Assembly: GCA_014799565.1 (NCBI GenBank)
Contig: JAAVHT010000034.1
Span: forward strand, 15,021-51,987
From: Clostridiales bacterium
GTDB lineage: Bacteria > Bacillota > Clostridia > Oscillospirales > Oscillospiraceae
Direction of reading: 5' to 3'
Length of the DNA: 36,967 nt
The translations under genes and the position numbers were made by a program. Of this stretch, positions 3,268-17,135 are shown in pieces; positions within the stretch are counted from its first letter, which is position 1, and every line of letters starts with the position of its first letter. The notes beneath the pieces are model-generated. The model was not told the DNA's origin. It saw only the letters and a program-made list of their open reading frames with translations, and ran no database searches.

Positions 3268-3493
3268 AGTACCATAGCGTTCATCTGCAATGATGGATCC
3301 GGCGGAGCTTATGAGCCGCTTTTCCATACCAGCGCCTGCGGGCGCACTAAATTGACGGGCCGCGGACTACTCCATTCAAATAGTCCGTGGTACTGAAAAA
3401 AGGAGGAAAAAATACCGCTGCGACTTGCGGTGCGGCAGTGTGGAGACCTGTCGCAAAGTTCCCGGAACATATGCGTCCGGGAATGAGGTGGAG
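3268..3493 (+). promoter_or_regulatory. Long structured 5' leader of the sugar ABC ATPase gene
   Basis: The leader has three visible hairpins: GGCGG...CCGCT near 3300-3320, GCGCC/GGCGC near 3333-3346, and a 10-bp stem with one G-U pair (3360-3369 with 3381-3390, 11-nt loop). Right after the last stem is AGGAGG (3401-3406) with no ATG, GTG or TTG at normal spacing. I do not recognise a known riboswitch class. Confidence 0.45.
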
Positions 3494-3526
3494 ATGGCGG
3501 AGGCCGCTCCATCAAAGTCGGGTACT

Positions 3527-4717
3527 ATGGCCGGTTTGTCCCTGAAGAACATCATGAAGATCTATCCCCACAGCGGCGACCAGAAGAAGGCGAAGAAGAA
3601 GAAGGGCGAGCCCGAGAAGAAGACCAATCTGCAGGTCACGGAAGAGGGCGTCATCGCCGTTCAGAAGTTCAACCTGGAGATCGCGGACAAGGAGTTCATC
3701 GTGCTGGTCGGCCCCTCCGGCTGCGGCAAGTCCACCACCCTGCGCATGGTGGCCGGCCTGGAGGAGATCTCCGGCGGCGAGCTGTACATCGACGGCAAGC
3801 TGATGAACGACGTCGCCCCCAAGGATCGCGACATCGCCATGGTGTTCCAAAGCTACGCTCTGTACCCCCACATGACCGTGTATGAGAACATGGCCTTCCC
3901 CCTGAAGCTCCGCAAGATGCCCAAGGATCAGATCGACAAGGCCGTGCGCGAGGCGGCTGAGACCCTGGACATCACCCAGTATCTGGATCGTAAGCCCAAG
4001 GCCCTGTCCGGCGGCCAGCGTCAGCGTGTGGCCATCGGCCGCGCTATCGTCCGTGAGCCCAAGGTGCTGCTGATGGACGAGCCGCTGTCCAACCTGGACG
4101 CCAAGCTCCGTAACCAGATGCGCGCCGAGATCATCAAGCTCCGCCAGAAGATCAACACCACCTTCATGTACGTCACCCATGACCAGACCGAGGCCATGAC
4201 CCTGGGCGACCGTATCGTCATCATGAAGGACGGCTTCATCCAGCAGATCGGCACCCCCCAGGAGGTGTTCGACCATCCCGCCAACCTGTTCGTGGCCGGC
4301 TTCATCGGCACCCCGCAGATGAACTTCTTCGATGCCAAGCTGGTTAACGAGGGCGGCAAGTACGCCGTGTCCGTGGGCGGCTGCAAGGTGGTTCTCTCCG
4401 AGGAGAAGCAGAAGAACCTGTCCGCCAAGAAGGTGGCCGCGCAGGATGTCACCATGGGCGTTCGTCCCAGCCACATGGTGCTGTCCAAGGATCCGGCCAA
4501 CACCCTGTCCGCCGTCATCGAGGTGTCCGAGCTGATGGGCAGCGAGGTTCACTTCCACGCCAACGCCAATGGCAAGGATGTGGTCGTGATCGTTCCCACC
4601 ATGGATGCCGACGGTGAGCGCATCGACTCTTACCACTCCGGCGACAAGCTGAACCTGACCTTCAGCGGCAATGTGTGCCATGTCTTCGACAAGGACGGTA
4701 AGAACCTGGAGTTCTAA
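3527..4717 (+). CDS. Sugar ABC importer ATPase, MsmK/MsmX/UgpC family (orphan)
   Basis: 396-residue cytoplasmic ATPase that would power carbohydrate ABC importers. It has Walker A GPSGCGKST (about 62-70), Q-loop FQSYALYPHMT, signature LSGGQRQRVAIGRA, Walker B VLLMDEPLSNLDAKL and the switch-histidine segment TFMYVTHDQTEAM, followed by the C-terminal TOBE-type regulatory domain typical of MalK/UgpC. A lysine-rich insert of about 26 residues (roughly 15-40) sits between the first two strands. No permease or binding-protein gene is nearby, so it may serve several importers, as MsmX does in Bacillus. MAGLSLKN at 3527 is chosen because family homology starts there, although no ribosome site is clear. 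ATG at 3494 (11 residues longer) is the alternative, with AGGTGG only 2 nt upstream. Confidence 0.92.
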   Translation: MAGLSLKNIMKIYPHSGDQKKAKKKKGEPEKKTNLQVTEEGVIAVQKFNLEIADKEFIVLVGPSGCGKSTTLRMVAGLEEISGGELYIDGKLMNDVAPKDRDIAMVFQSYALYPHMTVYENMAFPLKLRKMPKDQIDKAVREAAETLDITQYLDRKPKALSGGQRQRVAIGRAIVREPKVLLMDEPLSNLDAKLRNQMRAEIIKLRQKINTTFMYVTHDQTEAMTLGDRIVIMKDGFIQQIGTPQEVFDHPANLFVAGFIGTPQMNFFDAKLVNEGGKYAVSVGGCKVVLSEEKQKNLSAKKVAAQDVTMGVRPSHMVLSKDPANTLSAVIEVSELMGSEVHFHANANGKDVVVIVPTMDADGERIDSYHSGDKLNLTFSGNVCHVFDKDGKNLEF

Positions 4718-12211: not shown

Positions 12212-12481
12212 GTCCTGCCGGACGGTGCCGTCGGATCTGTGCTGGCCTGGTGCTTTGAAGCAAACCATACACCGTGCCTACAGGGCACGGAAAGGAAAAA
12301 ATGGAAAGATTTTTGTGCAGTTGACGAAATGACCGGGAACTGATAAACTTGTAACGACATCTGGTTCAGCAGAAAGCTGAGAGGATGGCTTGCCATTTCC
12401 CCTTGATTTGTCAAGGGGCTTCTGTGCCTTTGTGGGGATTTATCCGCTCAAAAGCACGTTTTGGAGGTGATGCCGGTGGTG
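12212..12481 (+). promoter_or_regulatory. Sigma-factor operon promoter region and leader
   Basis: A sigma-A-type promoter TTGACG (12321-12326), 17-bp spacer, TAAACT (12344-12349) precedes a leader of about 125 nt. The leader has an 8-bp hairpin (12399-12406 with 12411-12418) followed by CTTCTGTGCCTTTG. Overlapping the promoter is GGGAAC (12335-12340), 14 bp, CGACAT (12355-12360). This resembles ECF-type promoters and recurs upstream of the AP2 gene. No coding capacity is seen in this stretch. Confidence 0.65.
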
Positions 12482-13000
12482 ATGATTTATCTCAGCACCA
12501 TAGAGAGCCCGGAGGAAAAAATCAAATTCGAGGAGCTCTATAATAAGTACCGGGGCTTTATGCTCAAGGTCGCTTCCCGCATCCTGCGGGGAGAACAGGA
12601 TGCGGAGGACGCCGTACACAATGCCTTTTTGAGCCTGGCGAAAAATATGAAGCTTGTTCCCGAACTGGATTCTCTCAAGCTGCGGGGGTTCCTCTATATC
12701 GTTACCGAGAACAAGGCGATTGATATTCTCCGGGAACGGAAACGGCGGGATCTGGAGGAGTCTCTGTACGAGGACCAGCCCCTCTACGCCCCTGTTGACG
12801 ATGGGGAGCAGGATCTGGCCTGGTGCATCTCCCAGCTGCCGCCCCGGTATCAAGAGGTTATCCTGCTGAAATACAGCCATGGATACACGACCAGGGAGAT
12901 TGCCTCTATCCTGGGAATATCCTTCGCCGCGGCCAGCAAGCTGGATCAGCGGGCGAAGGCCAGACTGAAAGAACTGTGCGAAAAGGAGGGACTTCTGTGA
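12482..13000 (+). CDS. ECF-type RNA polymerase sigma factor
   Basis: 172 residues. It directs RNA polymerase to alternative promoters, usually after an envelope signal. Region 2 is FEELYNKYRGFMLKVASRILRGEQDAEDAVHNAFLSLAKN in outline (about 16-55), and region 4 is PPRYQEVILLKYSHGYTTREIASILGIS in outline, with a helix-turn-helix (about 120-150). Region 3 is absent, as in ECF factors. Several in-frame starts exist: GTG at 12476 has the best spacing (8 nt) to GGAGG at 12463-12467. ATG at 12482 fits the usual family start MIYLS. Its TGA overlaps the GTG of the next gene (GTGA), so sigma and anti-sigma are translationally coupled. Confidence 0.9.
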   Translation: MIYLSTIESPEEKIKFEELYNKYRGFMLKVASRILRGEQDAEDAVHNAFLSLAKNMKLVPELDSLKLRGFLYIVTENKAIDILRERKRRDLEESLYEDQPLYAPVDDGEQDLAWCISQLPPRYQEVILLKYSHGYTTREIASILGISFAAASKLDQRAKARLKELCEKEGLL

Positions 13001-13686
13001 TTTCGGACAAGGAATTGCGGGAGGCGGCGCGGCGGCACGAAAAAGCTCTGCTGCGTACCCTGCCGGAGCCGGAGGACTGCGAGGCCGTCTTCTCGCCGGA
13101 CTTTGAGCGCAAAATGAAAAAGCTGATCTTCCGGACGGATCATCCGATCCTGTACTGGCTGCCCCGGCTGCTTGGGGTTCTGCTGGCGCTGCTGGCCGCA
13201 GGATCGGTCGCCGCCGCCATGCTGTCGGCGAAACAGGCCGTCTATGTAAAGGAGCCGCCTGTGCACACGGAAAGGTCGGCTCCCACGGCTCCCACCGCCC
13301 CCACGGAGCCGCCATTCCCATCGGTGGAATCCCAGGAGCCGGAACCTGCGGCGCGAGCCATCGTTTACCGCCCCATCTGGCTGCCGGAGGGCTGCGAGTG
13401 GGATCGGGAGGCGCTATATGAGAACGAGGGCATGATCGTTTACCGTACCCCCGGCGGCACGGAGGCCGTGTTCCTCTACGACCTCACCGGCGCGGAGCGG
13501 GAGGCCGAAGGCAGGGAAGTCTCTGTGGGAGACGGGATCGGGACGCTCCTGCTGGGCCAGAACAAGGAGGAGCTCAACGAGCTGTTCTGGTCCGACGAAA
13601 AGGCCGGGGTTTCTTTCTGGCTGTCCGCGCCCTTTGAGGAGGAGGACATGATCCGCGTGGCGGAGAGTGTGAAGGCGGAAGAATGA
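12997..13686 (+). CDS. Membrane-anchored anti-sigma factor (DUF4367-like)
   Basis: 229 residues. A cytoplasmic N-terminal segment (1-50) is followed by one transmembrane helix (about 52-76), then a Pro/Thr-rich extracellular linker (85-120: APTAPTAPTEPP) and a C-terminal extracellular domain (120-229) like the DUF4367 domains found behind Firmicutes sigma factors. Position after the sigma gene with a 4-nt overlap, and this topology, make it the likely cognate anti-sigma factor that releases the sigma factor on an envelope signal. Start GTG 12997, AGGAGGG 6 nt upstream. No zinc-type HxxxCxxC motif is seen. Confidence 0.8.
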   Translation: MISDKELREAARRHEKALLRTLPEPEDCEAVFSPDFERKMKKLIFRTDHPILYWLPRLLGVLLALLAAGSVAAAMLSAKQAVYVKEPPVHTERSAPTAPTAPTEPPFPSVESQEPEPAARAIVYRPIWLPEGCEWDREALYENEGMIVYRTPGGTEAVFLYDLTGAEREAEGREVSVGDGIGTLLLGQNKEELNELFWSDEKAGVSFWLSAPFEEEDMIRVAESVKAEE

Positions 13687-13791
13687 CCCCCCAAAAAATT
13701 TTTTAAAAATTTTCAAACCAGGTGTCCAAAATCGTCATGTCTCCAACGCCAAATAGAGTAGGAGGACGAATCTCGAAAGGCGGTGGACACC
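13687..13791 (+). promoter_or_regulatory. AP2-gene upstream region with ECF-like promoter candidate
   Basis: No good sigma-A promoter is visible here. TCAAAC (13713-13718), 14 bp, CGTCAT (13733-13738) matches the spacing and form of the element before the sigma gene (GGGAAC-N14-CGACAT). The A6T6 tract at 13693-13704 is not a convincing terminator. If the candidate is not used, the downstream genes must read through from the sigma operon. Confidence 0.4.
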
Positions 13792-14127
13792 ATGGAAGAA
13801 CAGGAGAACCACAGCCCCCTCCATGGGCAATCCCTCGCCGAAATCGGTCGGGCCAGCCTGACCTTCATTGACGGAACCTGCGTGGAGATGCTGCGGGCCA
13901 AGACGGTCCGTTGCAACAACACCAGCGGCGTGCCCGGGGTGGAGTGGCGGAAGTCCAAGCAGCGCTGGCGCGCCAGCATCTGCTTCAAGGGGAAGCGCCA
14001 CTACCTGGGCAACTACGCCCGCTTCGAGGACGCCGTCAAGGCTCGAAAACGAGGAGAGGAGGATCTCCACGACAAATTTCTGCGTGAATTTGATGAGCAA
14101 AACGGGCAATCCAAGACAAGACCGTAG
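13792..14127 (+). CDS. Small AP2-domain DNA-binding protein
   Basis: 111 residues. Residues about 42-90 form an AP2/ERF-like three-strand-plus-helix domain: NNTSGVPGVEWRKSKQRW, then ASICFKGKRHYLGNY and the helix ARFEDAVKARKRGEEDL. In bacteria such domains are mostly found fused to HNH nucleases or integrases, or alone in small proteins of unknown role. Here there is no nuclease or integrase domain, so it may be a regulator or architectural DNA binder. The start at 13792 has AAGGCGG 8 nt upstream; GTG at 13783 is inside that site. It sits between the sigma/anti-sigma pair and the c-di-GMP riboswitch array with no promoter visible after it, so its mRNA probably runs into the array. Confidence 0.82.
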   Translation: MEEQENHSPLHGQSLAEIGRASLTFIDGTCVEMLRAKTVRCNNTSGVPGVEWRKSKQRWRASICFKGKRHYLGNYARFEDAVKARKRGEEDLHDKFLREFDEQNGQSKTRP

Positions 14128-14223
14128 GGATCGCACCTGAAGCGGCAGATTCACCGGGGAAGGGAGGGGCTCCACACGATCATCCGCCGCCAGACGCGCC
14201 GGGACGGCGGGTGGGACAGACCG

Positions 14224-14333
14224 GGCGCATGGGCAAACCATTGGAAACAATGGGACGCAAAGCCAGAGGCTGTCGGACGGTGACCTTCGCGAAACGCGGG
14301 CCCGTCCTACGCTCGTTCGGCTGTACTTATGTA
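14224..14333 (+). ncRNA. Cyclic-di-GMP-I (GEMM-I) riboswitch aptamer 1
   Basis: Hallmarks: GGGCAAACC (14231-14239), a perfect hairpin CATTG-GAAA-CAATG with GNRA loop, GGGACGCAAAGCC (14252-14264), then AGAGGCT, a long GC-rich arm (GGACGG...CCGTCC around CGCGAAACGCG) and the closing GTTCGGCTGTAC. The order matches the Vibrio and Clostridium GEMM-I consensus. Ends are approximate. Confidence 0.88.
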
Positions 14334-14340
14334 ACCCTCG

Positions 14341-14434
14341 AGAGAGATTTGGCAAACCATGGGAAACTGTGTGTGCGCAAAGCTACGGGACTAAGGCGCG
14401 AGAGATTCTTACGCTATGTTCGCCGGGCTGCACC
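14341..14434 (+). ncRNA. Cyclic-di-GMP-I (GEMM-I) riboswitch aptamer 2
   Basis: Hallmarks: TTGGCAAACC (14349-14358), the hairpin CATGG-GAAA-CTGTG, GCGCAAAGCTACGGGACTAAGG (core at 14376-14383), a variable arm, and CGCCGGGCTGCACC. It starts about 20 nt after aptamer 1. It is the closest of the three to the clostridial consensus in its ACGGG-CTAAGG part. Confidence 0.85.
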
Positions 14435-14520
14435 CGGCAATCCGTCCGAAAGGGCGGTCGCGCAAAGCCAGAGGCTAAAGTGCGGGCCTGTCCCGCGCCA
14501 TGCTCGTTCGGCTACCAGAT
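14430..14520 (+). ncRNA. Cyclic-di-GMP-I (GEMM-I) riboswitch aptamer 3
   Basis: Hallmarks: CCCGGCAATCC (14433-14443), the hairpin CCGTCC-GAAA-GGGCGG, CGCAAAGCC (14461-14469), AGAGGCTAAA, a GC-rich arm (TGCGGG...CCCGCG) and GTTCGGCTACC. It departs from consensus by CAATCC instead of CAAACC. It abuts aptamer 2 directly and ends about 40 nt before the surface-protein ATG. Confidence 0.82.
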
Positions 14521-14521
14521 A

Positions 14522-14550
14522 CTTTGCGTCTGAATATTGCAAAGAAAGGA
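14522..14550 (+). promoter_or_regulatory. Putative riboswitch expression platform and ribosome site
   Basis: CTTTGCG (14522-14528) can pair with GCAAAG (14539-14544), which touches the ribosome site AAAGGA (14545-14550). It can instead pair with CGCAAAG (14461-14467), the conserved ligand-pocket strand of aptamer 3. The two pairings exclude each other, as expected for a translational switch. No U-tract terminator is seen between the array and the ATG. Confidence 0.5.
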
Positions 14551-14558
14551 AAATTATC

Positions 14559-16271
14559 ATGAAAAAAATGAGTAAACTGCTGTCCGTTATCATTGCCCTG
14601 GTGCTGTGCGTCAGCATGGTCACACCCGCGATGGCCATCGATCTTACTGAGGATTATCTTAGTAACCTTGAGCAGAAAACGCATACGGATGGTTACAAGT
14701 ATGTCGATCTGAAGGTTGAGAAGGATGAGAATGGCAACGTTACCGATAATACGTTCAATATGACCGGCGATCTCAACATTGACTACACACTGCGGTTCAG
14801 CGGCAAGGACGATGTTGTGCTCAACATGAACGGCCATACCCTGAATCATGAGGGAGCTTCCGGGTCGGTGATTCGTACTGAGAAGACCAACCTGACCATC
14901 AATGGCGAAGGCGAAGACGGCAGCATGGGCACCATCACCGGCGGCAACGCTGTATCCGATGGAAACACCTATAGCGAAAACGGCGGCGGTGTCGCTGCCA
15001 ATGGCGGTGATCTTACCGTAAACAATGTGCATATCACTGGAAATGTGGCGGAGAAAGGTGGCAGTGCCATATGGGCCAAGGGCAGCGATAATGTAACGCT
15101 GGATAACGTTCTTGTTGACAATGCCGAAACTGGAACGAATGAGAAAGGTGAACCCAATGCCACTGGTGGAACGGTGTATTGTAAAGACGTCAACAAGGTT
15201 ACAGTCAAGGACAGTACAATCACGGATAACACGGCCGCCAGTGCCGGCGCGGGGCTTGCCTTCAATGACTGCAATGACGTCACTGTAGAAAACACCGTGA
15301 TTTCCAATAACACATCCACCGGCGTAGGCTCTGACGATGATCAACCTCTTGATGAGCCAGTTCCCTTTGGCGCTGGTGTGATTGCCCAGAATGTTAAAAA
15401 CCTCAACATGACGGGTGTCACCATCTCTGGCAATACCGCCGATACCGCGAATGGGACTGGCGGCGGTATGTACGCCTATAATGTTGACAAGATCAGCATG
15501 GATGAGGTCACCATCTCTGGCAACAAGGCGTACTACGGCGGCGGTGTGTATACCAACAATGTTGGATCGATTGAGATGAATAACACCCAAATAACCGGGA
15601 ACACCGCGGGCGGTGCCTATGGCGGAGGTATGTATATCTACAGCGACAGTACTTCGACTACTGTTAATGGTACCAATACCGTGATTGCCGACAATACGTT
15701 TTATGGCGGCAGCTCCGCTAACGATGTATTTGCGTATGCGAATGGCGTAACCATTGACATGAAGTTCGGGCCTACGACCTATGGCGACAAGGAGTTCGAC
15801 GGCTGGAGCAAGAGTTTTGAGACTTCGGAGTTTGTGCGTGAAGGGGAAGAGGCCGATGAAGATGGAGTCTTTGGGAACAACTATTCCAACAATTGGGGCT
15901 GGATGACCTTCCACTGGACCGAGCAGCCCGAGCAGCCCGACGAGGGCGACAAGACCCCTGTGCCTCCCGTGCTTCCCGAGCCCCCCGTGGTTCCCGTGAA
16001 CCCCACTCCCGATCCGGATCCCGAGGAGCCCGTGGAGATCGAGGAGCCTGAGACCCCGCTGGGCGAGCTGCCCGATGATCCCGTGGAGATCGAAGAGCCC
16101 GAGGTTCCGCTGGGCGAGCTGCCCGAGATCGAGATCGACGAGCCCGACGTGCCCCTGGGCGATGTACCCCAGACCGGCGAGGCGTCCACTATGATGTTTG
16201 TGGTCGTATTGCTGGCCTGCAGCATGGGCCTGGTGTATGTGAACACCGGCAAGCGCAAGGAAAACGCGTAA
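14559..16271 (+). CDS. Sortase-anchored surface protein with beta-helix domain (putative adhesin)
   Basis: 570 residues. Signal peptide 1-26 (KKMSKLLSVIIALVLCVSMV, then TPAMA). Residues about 45-430 are a right-handed beta-helix of Asn/Gly/Thr-rich rungs (for example VTISGNTADTANGTGGGMYA, VTISGNKAYYGGGVYTNN), like pectin-lyase or Pmp-type repeats. A Pro/Glu stalk (455-535) holds three near-identical 17-residue repeats. VPQTG at 536-540 is followed by a hydrophobic anchor and the basic tail KRK. No catalytic lyase residues are evident, so an adhesin or structural role is inferred. Base composition in the beta-helix is visibly lower in GC than its neighbours. The start at 14559 has AAAGGA 8 nt upstream. 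The leader is the triple c-di-GMP array; a sortase gene follows. Confidence 0.88.
   Translation: MKKMSKLLSVIIALVLCVSMVTPAMAIDLTEDYLSNLEQKTHTDGYKYVDLKVEKDENGNVTDNTFNMTGDLNIDYTLRFSGKDDVVLNMNGHTLNHEGASGSVIRTEKTNLTINGEGEDGSMGTITGGNAVSDGNTYSENGGGVAANGGDLTVNNVHITGNVAEKGGSAIWAKGSDNVTLDNVLVDNAETGTNEKGEPNATGGTVYCKDVNKVTVKDSTITDNTAASAGAGLAFNDCNDVTVENTVISNNTSTGVGSDDDQPLDEPVPFGAGVIAQNVKNLNMTGVTISGNTADTANGTGGGMYAYNVDKISMDEVTISGNKAYYGGGVYTNNVGSIEMNNTQITGNTAGGAYGGGMYIYSDSTSTTVNGTNTVIADNTFYGGSSANDVFAYANGVTIDMKFGPTTYGDKEFDGWSKSFETSEFVREGEEADEDGVFGNNYSNNWGWMTFHWTEQPEQPDEGDKTPVPPVLPEPPVVPVNPTPDPDPEEPVEIEEPETPLGELPDDPVEIEEPEVPLGELPEIEIDEPDVPLGDVPQTGEASTMMFVVVLLACSMGLVYVNTGKRKENA
16029..16175 (+). repeat. 51-nt repeat, three copies, encoding the Pro/Glu stalk
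   Basis: In-frame repeat with a 51-nt period (units start near 16029 and 16080; the third is degenerate). The units end in PLGELP, PLGELP and PLGDVP, the last running into the sorting signal. Copy number could vary between strains and change stalk length. Confidence 0.75.
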
Positions 16272-16322: not shown

Positions 16323-17135
16323 ATGAACAGGCGGCTTCGCATGATCCTGAATATTGTCCTGCTTCTGGCGGTGCTGGTCTGCGCCGGGGTTCTGCTGCGG
16401 CAGCAGCTCCAGTGGCGGGACAGCGCCGAAGCCACGAAAAAGGCGGCGGAGATCGTCCATGCCAGACCCGCGCCGTCGGCAGAACAGGGGGACGCCTCCG
16501 CCGCGCCGGCTCTGGAGCCGGCCACAGGATCCGGGGACACGGATCCTGTGGTGAATGAGCTTTCATGTCTGGATCTGGCCGCCCTGCGGGCGGTCAACCC
16601 GGACGTGGCGGCCTGGCTCACCGTTCCCGGCGCGGACATCTCCCACCCGATCCTCCAGGGCCCGGACAACGACTACTATTTGCATCATACCTGGGAGAAA
16701 AAGTGGAACGGCGGCGGGTCCATCTTCCTGGACTGGCGCAGCAGCCCGGATTTTGAGGGGTTCCATACCATCATCTACGGCCACCGGATGCAGAACGGCA
16801 CCATGTTCGGCCCTCTGCACCGATACGCGGAGCAGGACTTCTGGACGGAGCACCCCTATGTCTATATAGCGGACGGCAAGTGCGTGCGCCGCTATCAGAT
16901 TTTCGCCGCCTGGGAGCCCAGTGTCACCAGCGCAGTCTACGCGCAGGATCTGGACAGCGAGGAGGCGCGTCAGGAGCTGATCGACCAGTGTCTGCGCGGC
17001 TCCGTGATCGACACGGGGGTGGTTCCCGGCCCGGAGGACAAACTGCTGACTCTCTCCACCTGCACCGGCAGCGGCCATGAGACCCGCTGGGTGGTTCAGG
17101 CGCGGCTGGAGGAGATATACCCGGCGCAAGAGTAA
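16323..17135 (+). CDS. Class B sortase
   Basis: 270 residues. Membrane transpeptidase that cleaves a sorting motif and links the protein to peptidoglycan. An N-terminal anchor (about 8-26) is followed by an extracellular linker and the SrtB fold: DVAAWLTVPGADISHPILQGPDNDYYLHH in outline, with catalytic His154 in YGHRM, Cys247 in TLSTCT and Arg255 in ETRWVV. The tandem location after a VPQTG protein marks that protein as its likely substrate. Start 16323: GGAGG lies 6 nt upstream. Followed by a strong terminator. Confidence 0.93.
   Translation: MNRRLRMILNIVLLLAVLVCAGVLLRQQLQWRDSAEATKKAAEIVHARPAPSAEQGDASAAPALEPATGSGDTDPVVNELSCLDLAALRAVNPDVAAWLTVPGADISHPILQGPDNDYYLHHTWEKKWNGGGSIFLDWRSSPDFEGFHTIIYGHRMQNGTMFGPLHRYAEQDFWTEHPYVYIADGKCVRRYQIFAAWEPSVTSAVYAQDLDSEEARQELIDQCLRGSVIDTGVVPGPEDKLLTLSTCTGSGHETRWVVQARLEEIYPAQE

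Follow-up and report, generated by a model that had tools for sequence, protein, structure and literature searches.

A close-packed array of three c-di-GMP-I aptamers ahead of one putative pseudoknot platform and a surface-protein gene in a Clostridiales bacterium

Riboswitches whose pseudoknots regulate translation are familiar from the preQ1-I type, in which an H-type pseudoknot acts as a translational switch with its 3' strand running into the Shine-Dalgarno sequence. To our knowledge, no c-di-GMP system has been described before in which a single output has to serve several aptamers. The closest described relative of the locus presented here is Bc3-5 of Bacillus thuringiensis, which according to the available text of PMC4759541 consists of three complete class-I riboswitches, with units 160 nt apart that each carry a predicted terminator. 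A 2022 survey counted 347 doublets and 12 triplets of c-di-GMP-I riboswitches and, in its accessible portion, files them under multiple expression platforms, with glycine, guanidine-II and NAD+-I among the classes that place several aptamers on a single platform (PMC9481103). A further analysis found adjacent aptamers enriched for glycine and in Pseudomonadota, and c-di-GMP riboswitches enriched as separate tandem units (PMC12452182, accessible text). The array described here resembles Bc3-5 in placing three class-I aptamers ahead of one gene or operon, but its aptamers are close together and are followed by one non-terminator platform. It shares homologous adjacent aptamers and a single platform with the tandem glycine riboswitch, treated under 'cooperative riboswitch aptamers' in PMC9481103 as far as that text is available, but the ligand class is different, up to five aptamers occur in relatives, and cooperativity is putative. 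Like preQ1-I switches, it has a candidate pseudoknot that would run into the Shine-Dalgarno sequence, but here the pseudoknot would act as the platform instead of forming the ligand pocket. Compared with RF01051 (c-di-GMP-I, GEMM-I), each aptamer scores over the family cut-off and keeps G20 and the core, whereas several close-packed aptamers precede one platform, so that the array appears to be a family member in a new arrangement. No description of packed arrays, of the pseudoknot platform or of the associated leader was found in the titles and abstract openings searched in the open-licence literature, although the supplementary lists of PMC9481103 may hold some such arrays. The layout recurs in relatives and, judged from sequence, seems to be a multi-sensor gene switch of a kind not described before.

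The window, the whole 36,967-nt stretch of DNA that was analysed, carries all features of the array on its forward strand. Its three aptamers are real RF01051 matches and not chance. Aptamer 1 (14231-14324; match 14222-14328, 46.7 bits) and aptamer 2 (14350-14431; match 14341-14435, 49.2 bits) were reported by cmscan at the gathering threshold, and aptamer 3 (14435-14515) scored 42.0 bits at C34:29446-29539, equivalent to 14426-14519 of the window, in a whole-genome search keeping overlaps; the cut-off is 35 bits. The original prediction of three tandem GEMM-I aptamers at 14224-14333, 14341-14434 and 14430-14520 is borne out with match ends that agree to within 5 nt each, and in place of the fewer than two significant covariance-model matches that it had named as its refuter, three lie above the cut-off. 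Default cmscan at the gathering threshold returned two of the three, and at low threshold over 14100-14700 the place of aptamer 3 held a variant-family match alone (RF03167, 16.5 bits, 14437-14515). This is because same-clan overlaps are dropped and aptamer 3 overlaps aptamer 2 by 10 nt; we therefore rejected its absence from the cmscan output as an artefact of overlap removal, which can make RF01051 counts from default cmscan too low wherever aptamers are packed. The same loss was observed for the window and loci L054-L072 when default cmscan was compared with a trimmed aptamer model. That model, R1, gave 71.2, 71.3 and 63.9 bits for aptamers 1 to 3, scores that are partly circular since R1 was built in part from the window's own aptamers. 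In a 40-sequence alignment of array aptamers, 13 of 16 pairs change on both sides, a level reached by none of 500 shuffles and far above slid controls, and on this covariation the aptamers of these arrays are real helices.

The spacing of the aptamers leaves little room for separate outputs. Counted from base 92 of one aptamer to G20 of the following one, the first gap is 26 nt and the second 4 nt, corresponding to 12 nt and a 10-nt overlap between Rfam match ends. By these match ends the array falls under the definition of adjacent aptamers in the accessible text of PMC12452182, aptamer domains separated by fewer than 20 nt with a single platform behind the last. In named loci, among the matches listed, linkers from C92 to the next G20 measure 1-11 nt in 115 of 126 cases and 1-15 nt in 118. 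Neither intrinsic terminators nor sigma-70-type promoters were found in 14100-14600, and with gaps of this size and an empty terminator search over that interval, an expression platform for each aptamer is not seen in the window; the 26-nt linker could accommodate a short terminator, but the search showed none there. A candidate hairpin, GCCGGG-CUGCA-CCCGGC (14422-14438, -11.1 kcal/mol), connects the 3' end of aptamer 2 with the 5' core of aptamer 3 and, from its predicted pairing, cannot coexist with both aptamers folded. It is the strongest among 128 distinct junctions with linkers of at most 12 nt. As a general rule such a hairpin was rejected, with only 19 of the 128 junctions below -6 kcal/mol; mean junction folding energy is -3.92 kcal/mol against -2.84 for shuffles, about 1 kcal/mol apart, and the window is the extreme case.

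Directly after the last C92, the arrays share an element with the consensus CGGAY-N-CUUUGC-RUCCG-N4..14-GCAAAG-AAAGGA. In the window, both the platform pattern and a blind pseudoknot search place a first stem, S1, with its 5' strand CAGAU at 14516-14520, a double-changed variant of CGGAY/RUCCG, and its 3' strand GUCUG at 14528-14532. Strand B (CUUUGC, 14522-14527) is complementary to the core hexamer GCAAAG of the aptamer as well as to strand C (GCAAAG, 14539-14544), with which it would make an H-type pseudoknot; the last two bases of strand C are the first two of an extended Shine-Dalgarno sequence, AGAAAGGA (14543-14550), and AAAGGAA precedes the gene start at 14559. Across 120 distinct platforms S1 has 4-5 bp and starts on the base right after the last C92, stem 2 (B:C) has 6 bp, L1 spans 1-2 nt in 116, L2 is 0 nt, L3 spans 4-14 nt and strand C reads GCAAAG in 118, a geometry that is descriptive because L2 and a large part of strand C are set by the pattern and many loci were collected through the platform pattern itself. 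These are the proportions of a potential H-type pseudoknot. The blind search was confined to loci fetched via RF01051 alone, with distinct 60-nt tails and with tails cut by a locus end dropped. Of 61 multi-aptamer arrays searched in this way, 56 have an H-type pseudoknot behind the last aptamer, where base shuffles predict 0.08; the corresponding figures for 27 single-aptamer tails are 4 and 0.06 (kinship ignored). Among the five failures, the last aptamer was probably misassigned in L055 and L117, the tail of L070 ends in a T run, the platform element of L068 is degenerate, and in L138 loop and partner are both altered (UGCUG/CAGCA). S1 carries the double change CAGA/UCUG in the window, and two G-U variants also exist; since S1 and B:C are more conserved than covarying, support for the pseudoknot is mainly geometric.

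The hexamer CUUUGC thus has two partners, the aptamer core and strand C, which we regard as the sign of a switch. Strand B together with the 3' strand of S1 (11 nt) pairs with the last core at a mean of -12.3 kcal/mol, compared with -5.1 kcal/mol for the remaining 15-mers of that aptamer (117/120); B:C reaches -5.3 kcal/mol, a value for hexamers that is not on one scale with the pairing of 11 against 15 nt. L138 lacks the B:core match too, and platforms with AUCC have one mismatch to the common core. The 8-mer AGAAAGGA, which we take to be complementary to the extended 3' end of 16S rRNA, is found in 100 of the 120 platforms, and the last two bases of strand C begin the extended Shine-Dalgarno sequence in 112. 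The 16S 3' end motif was detected in three of eight genomes searched, namely three of the four reached via platform-bearing named loci, and gave no match in the array's own assembly, which is 78% complete. Inspection of related loci by eye revealed no conserved stretch able to mask the Shine-Dalgarno sequence in an unbound state.

The gene that follows supports the earlier claim that a surface-protein gene stands behind the array. It encodes a 570-aa beta-helix protein (14559-16271, PF13229, 8.6e-10), the putative regulated product, which looks secreted, with a signal-peptide-like start and a C-terminal VPQTGE sorting signal (both recognised by eye), and a sortase gene (16323-17135, PF04203, 3.4e-14) is probably in the same operon. 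Most of the proteins scanned behind such arrays have domains of surface or adhesin type (SLH, SHIRT, beta-helix, MucBP, LRR); that of L020 had no domain match in the scan. On the 5' side, a small protein directly precedes the array (13783-14127, forward strand) with an AP2-domain-like stretch at 24.9 bits, short of the Pfam cut-off of 33.3, and further upstream come an ECF-type sigma factor and, behind it, a DUF4367 protein that may be its anti-sigma factor (together 12461-13686, forward strand). The window also contains a malK-I RNA (RF03069, 148 bits) at 3352-3532 on the forward strand.

The genome itself (2.51 Mb in 92 contigs) holds a series of such arrays. RF01051 gave 18 matches at E<=10, 14 of them over the cut-off and 16 at E<=0.0011, the remaining two, at 13-14 bits, being left out as chance. 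The 16 make up seven arrays, of which three are triple, three double and one single, and each is followed by a platform element and a start codon, including the single aptamer on C22. Six of the seven proteins behind them begin with MKK and a similar hydrophobic stretch, the one at L019 being different. In the genus, 18 of 42 genomes have RF01051 matches (E<=0.1), amounting to 142 aptamers that cluster at <=350 nt into 63 arrays, 14 single, 25 double, 18 triple and 6 quadruple; some of these contain gaps of roughly 100-150 nt, which suggest missed aptamers. The view that triple arrays are rare therefore fits the 12 triplets in the accessible part of the PMC9481103 survey and fails for this genus. 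At family level, 47 of 150 genomes in a sample have RF01051 matches (E<=0.01), and contig G070:C12 (apparently CANSAE010000012.1) holds five closely packed aptamers. The platform pattern occurs in at least 115 stretches of GTDB genomes, and the matches listed include Oscillibacter sp. 1-3, Flintibacter muris, Pseudoflavonifractor sp. 60 and the lachnospiraceous Acetatifactor muris. Among the matches listed, 103 platforms from 100 of these at least 115 stretches, scanned with the aptamer model, follow chains of 0 (5), 1 (10), 2 (60), 3 (20), 4 (6) or 5 (2) aptamers. Of those with none, L162 and L202 appear to be chance matches within coding sequence (L202 also lies near a contig end), L216 and L251 are at contig ends, and the aptamers of L233 are about 131 nt away, just past the limit. 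The distance from the last aptamer to CUUUGC, again among the matches listed, is 6-9 nt in 91 platforms and 102-125 nt in seven, probably because a long-P3 aptamer was missed there. Four genus loci (L140, L141, L147 and L148, in G174, G175, G177 and G179) have single class-I aptamers whose platform, judged by eye, is of the terminator type. A GGDEF match is present in all 11 genus genomes that carry an array of at least two aptamers, compared with 16 of 31 others (Fisher p 0.0035, kinship ignored); in G177 and G179, where the riboswitches are single and terminator-type, none was found at E<=1e-6.

In the binding pocket, with numbering that we mapped through the Rfam consensus and the accessible text of PMC4759541, G20, A47 and C92 are all kept in aptamers 2 and 3, and aptamer 1 keeps G20 and has U at the C92 position (14324), reading GGCUGU where relatives read GGCUGC. 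Seven of 142 genus aptamers end in a base other than C, aptamer 1 included, and the other six appear by eye to be weak, truncated or misplaced match ends. In the accessible texts, G20A shifts class-I aptamers towards cGAMP (PMC9481103, PMC6274999, PMC7288161) and G20A/C92U is connected with c-di-AMP (PMC6274999, PMC7288161). The altered selectivity once suggested for aptamer 3 from its CAATCC core finds no support: G20 (14436) and C92 (14515) are unchanged, and the T (14441), at the A25 position, is absent from the contacts given in the available text of PMC7288161 and PMC9049102. We accordingly rejected cGAMP selectivity for this aptamer, its G20 being kept; A20, the mark of 3',3'-cGAMP-selective variants, is absent from all three window aptamers, whereas it occurs in 36 of the 114 last aptamers counted in platform arrays. 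Base 20 in those last aptamers is G in 66, A in 36 and C in 12 (for example L115, L119 and L123), and in 159 upstream aptamers G in 138, A in 17, C in 3 and T in 1, so that A or C stands in 48/114 against 20/159 (Fisher p 2e-5 for A20 and 0.003 for C20, kinship ignored). These counts drop matches without GC after base 20, six last and one upstream; unfiltered, the last aptamers give G 66, A 41 and C 13 of 120. The genome's one GGDEF match, in a protein with HD-GYP and a canonical GHxxGD motif (by eye, in the 78% complete assembly), makes c-di-GMP the expected ligand. Of six non-standard core strings, four are changes at or beside A47 in first aptamers (the pattern caught 126 of 142 aptamers), and core mutations affect the first aptamer in each of L019, L107, L115 and L123. 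With the C92U of the window, these A47-region changes mean that upstream aptamers may be inactive.

Upstream of aptamer 1 lies a hairpin, P0 (14180-14214; arms 14180-14193 and 14200-14214, loop 14194-14199; 13 bp by RNAfold), and P0-like hairpins are seen by eye before many related arrays. The flank GGGCGC (14223-14228) is a candidate partner of the P0 loop, with a weak pairing of 4 bp by script and 5 by eye (GCGCC, 14196-14200). Across 117 arrays, hairpin loops pair with their flanks at a mean of 9.87 compared with 8.31 for permuted flanks (z 7.9, kinship ignored), and within the genus z is 2.1 (n=43), where automatic hairpin choice often failed. Of 118 arrays with upstream room, 101 have a Shine-Dalgarno sequence and start codon, chosen blind to what follows, and CCNCCNTGG, encoding Pro-Pro-Trp, falls in frame 0 of 30 arrays, frame 1 of one and frame 2 of none (kinship ignored). 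CCNCCN alone falls in frames 0, 1 and 2 of 71, 43 and 6 arrays, its frame-1 count probably stemming from the downstream hairpin. Third bases of the Pro codons vary in 64 aligned cases (G 41, C 10, A 10, T 3; and G 27, C 22, T 10, A 5), the peptides MTEAIPPWYC, MNEAIPPWMR and MEEAIPPWNG recur, and the hairpin begins about 6 nt past the Trp codon in leader-bearing arrays; the short ORF looks like one for a ribosome-arrest leader peptide. Leader ORFs with a Shine-Dalgarno sequence stand some 75-80 nt before aptamer 1 in, for example, L020, L064, L153 and L200, and some leaders carry Pro-Pro-Gly or Pro-Pro-Val just before the hairpin in place of Pro-Pro-Trp. Four of the seven arrays of this genome have a leader (C20 with PPW, C14 and C1 with PPG, C35 with PPV). 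That the PPW leader is tied to arrays only was not borne out, the pattern giving 98 matches in 21 genomes, about 14 places of which are beside arrays, against six matches for the reversed pattern. No canonical leader start codon was recognised in the 5' region of the window array, which keeps the hairpin, and the leader is therefore a property of related arrays and not of the window's.

Taken together, these features make it probable that the array is a multi-aptamer, single-platform c-di-GMP-I riboswitch controlling translation of the surface protein. This reading as a switch draws on sequence, namely the aptamers, their spacing, the pseudoknot potential, a terminator not found and the adjacency to the Shine-Dalgarno; the order of switching, the coupling of aptamers and the sign are what we infer from it. 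In the absence of ligand, strand B would pair with the core GCAAAG of the last aptamer and leave the ribosome-binding site open. Binding of c-di-GMP would occupy the core and release B, with S1 stacking directly below C92, and the released B could then pair with strand C, the copy of the core hexamer, to close an H-type pseudoknot over the first bases of the extended Shine-Dalgarno. The last aptamer would thus pass its state to the single platform through the contest of its core and strand C for B, and upstream aptamers, coupled to it via short junctions, would sharpen the response; in the window, the competing hairpin at 14422-14438 might add to this coupling. A steeper response to c-di-GMP from stacked aptamers, as originally predicted, is plausible. 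Translation would be OFF at high c-di-GMP, a sign towards which the predicted structure tips us by a little. Adhesins are usually promoted by c-di-GMP, and an ON switch would be expected, consistent with most scanned targets, though not that of L020, being of surface or adhesin type. The pseudoknot might then, for example, hold B away from other partners in the ribosome-binding region or shield the mRNA from decay, a sign that we hold to be a real contender at somewhat under even chances, against which stand the overlap of strand C with the extended Shine-Dalgarno and, by eye, the lack of a conserved blocker for the unbound state.

How many of the aptamers contribute, and to what, can be read in other ways. 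The characterised triplet Bc3-5, of the same class and likewise in tandem, works as independent, pseudo-cooperative riboswitches with a platform each (PMC4759541, available text), yet its mutated positions G11, G171 and G331 lie 160 nt apart, the gaps in the window and in 118 of 126 linkers among the matches listed are mostly too short for a terminator, and the terminator search of 14100-14600 found none, so that we regard independent units as very improbable here. It is unlikely, though less so, that the last aptamer alone regulates while those upstream are decaying duplicates or non-binding 'ghost' aptamers aiding its folding. The C92U of aptamer 1, the altered first cores in four other loci, the single aptamer of C22 on the same platform and the pseudoknots in 4 of 27 single-aptamer tails all fit that picture, but G20 is kept in 138 of 159 upstream aptamers, array aptamers show covariation in P2 and P3, and arrays of two to five aptamers occur in several genomes. 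The excess of A or C at base 20 in last aptamers, along with the cGAMP shift attributed to G20A in the accessible texts cited above, would suit a mixed-ligand logic device whose aptamers prefer different cyclic dinucleotides. We consider this quite improbable, as all window aptamers have G20, the one GGDEF match of the genome is canonical, A20 may merely weaken c-di-GMP binding, and the base-20 counts ignore kinship.

A broader and more speculative reading joins these parts into a composite and hitherto undescribed RNA regulator of Clostridia, in which an arrest-type PPW leader, a 5' pseudoknot, two to five coupled aptamers and one adhesin-gating pseudoknot would work together, the leader ribosome touching the 5' pseudoknot beside aptamer 1 and the last aptamer often having another specificity. 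We view this as doubtful; aptamers, 5' hairpin and platform of such an assembly are all present in the window array, which has no recognisable leader start codon. If true, it would be a device sensing the translation state together with several nucleotide signals.

In summary, returning to the single-platform riboswitch that we favour, our analysis offers a natural series of one to five aptamers on one platform, in which the gain from tandem arrangement, be it cooperativity, ghost aptamers or mixed ligands, could be tested. If this reading is true, c-di-GMP would be linked to surface proteins across a large group of Clostridia.
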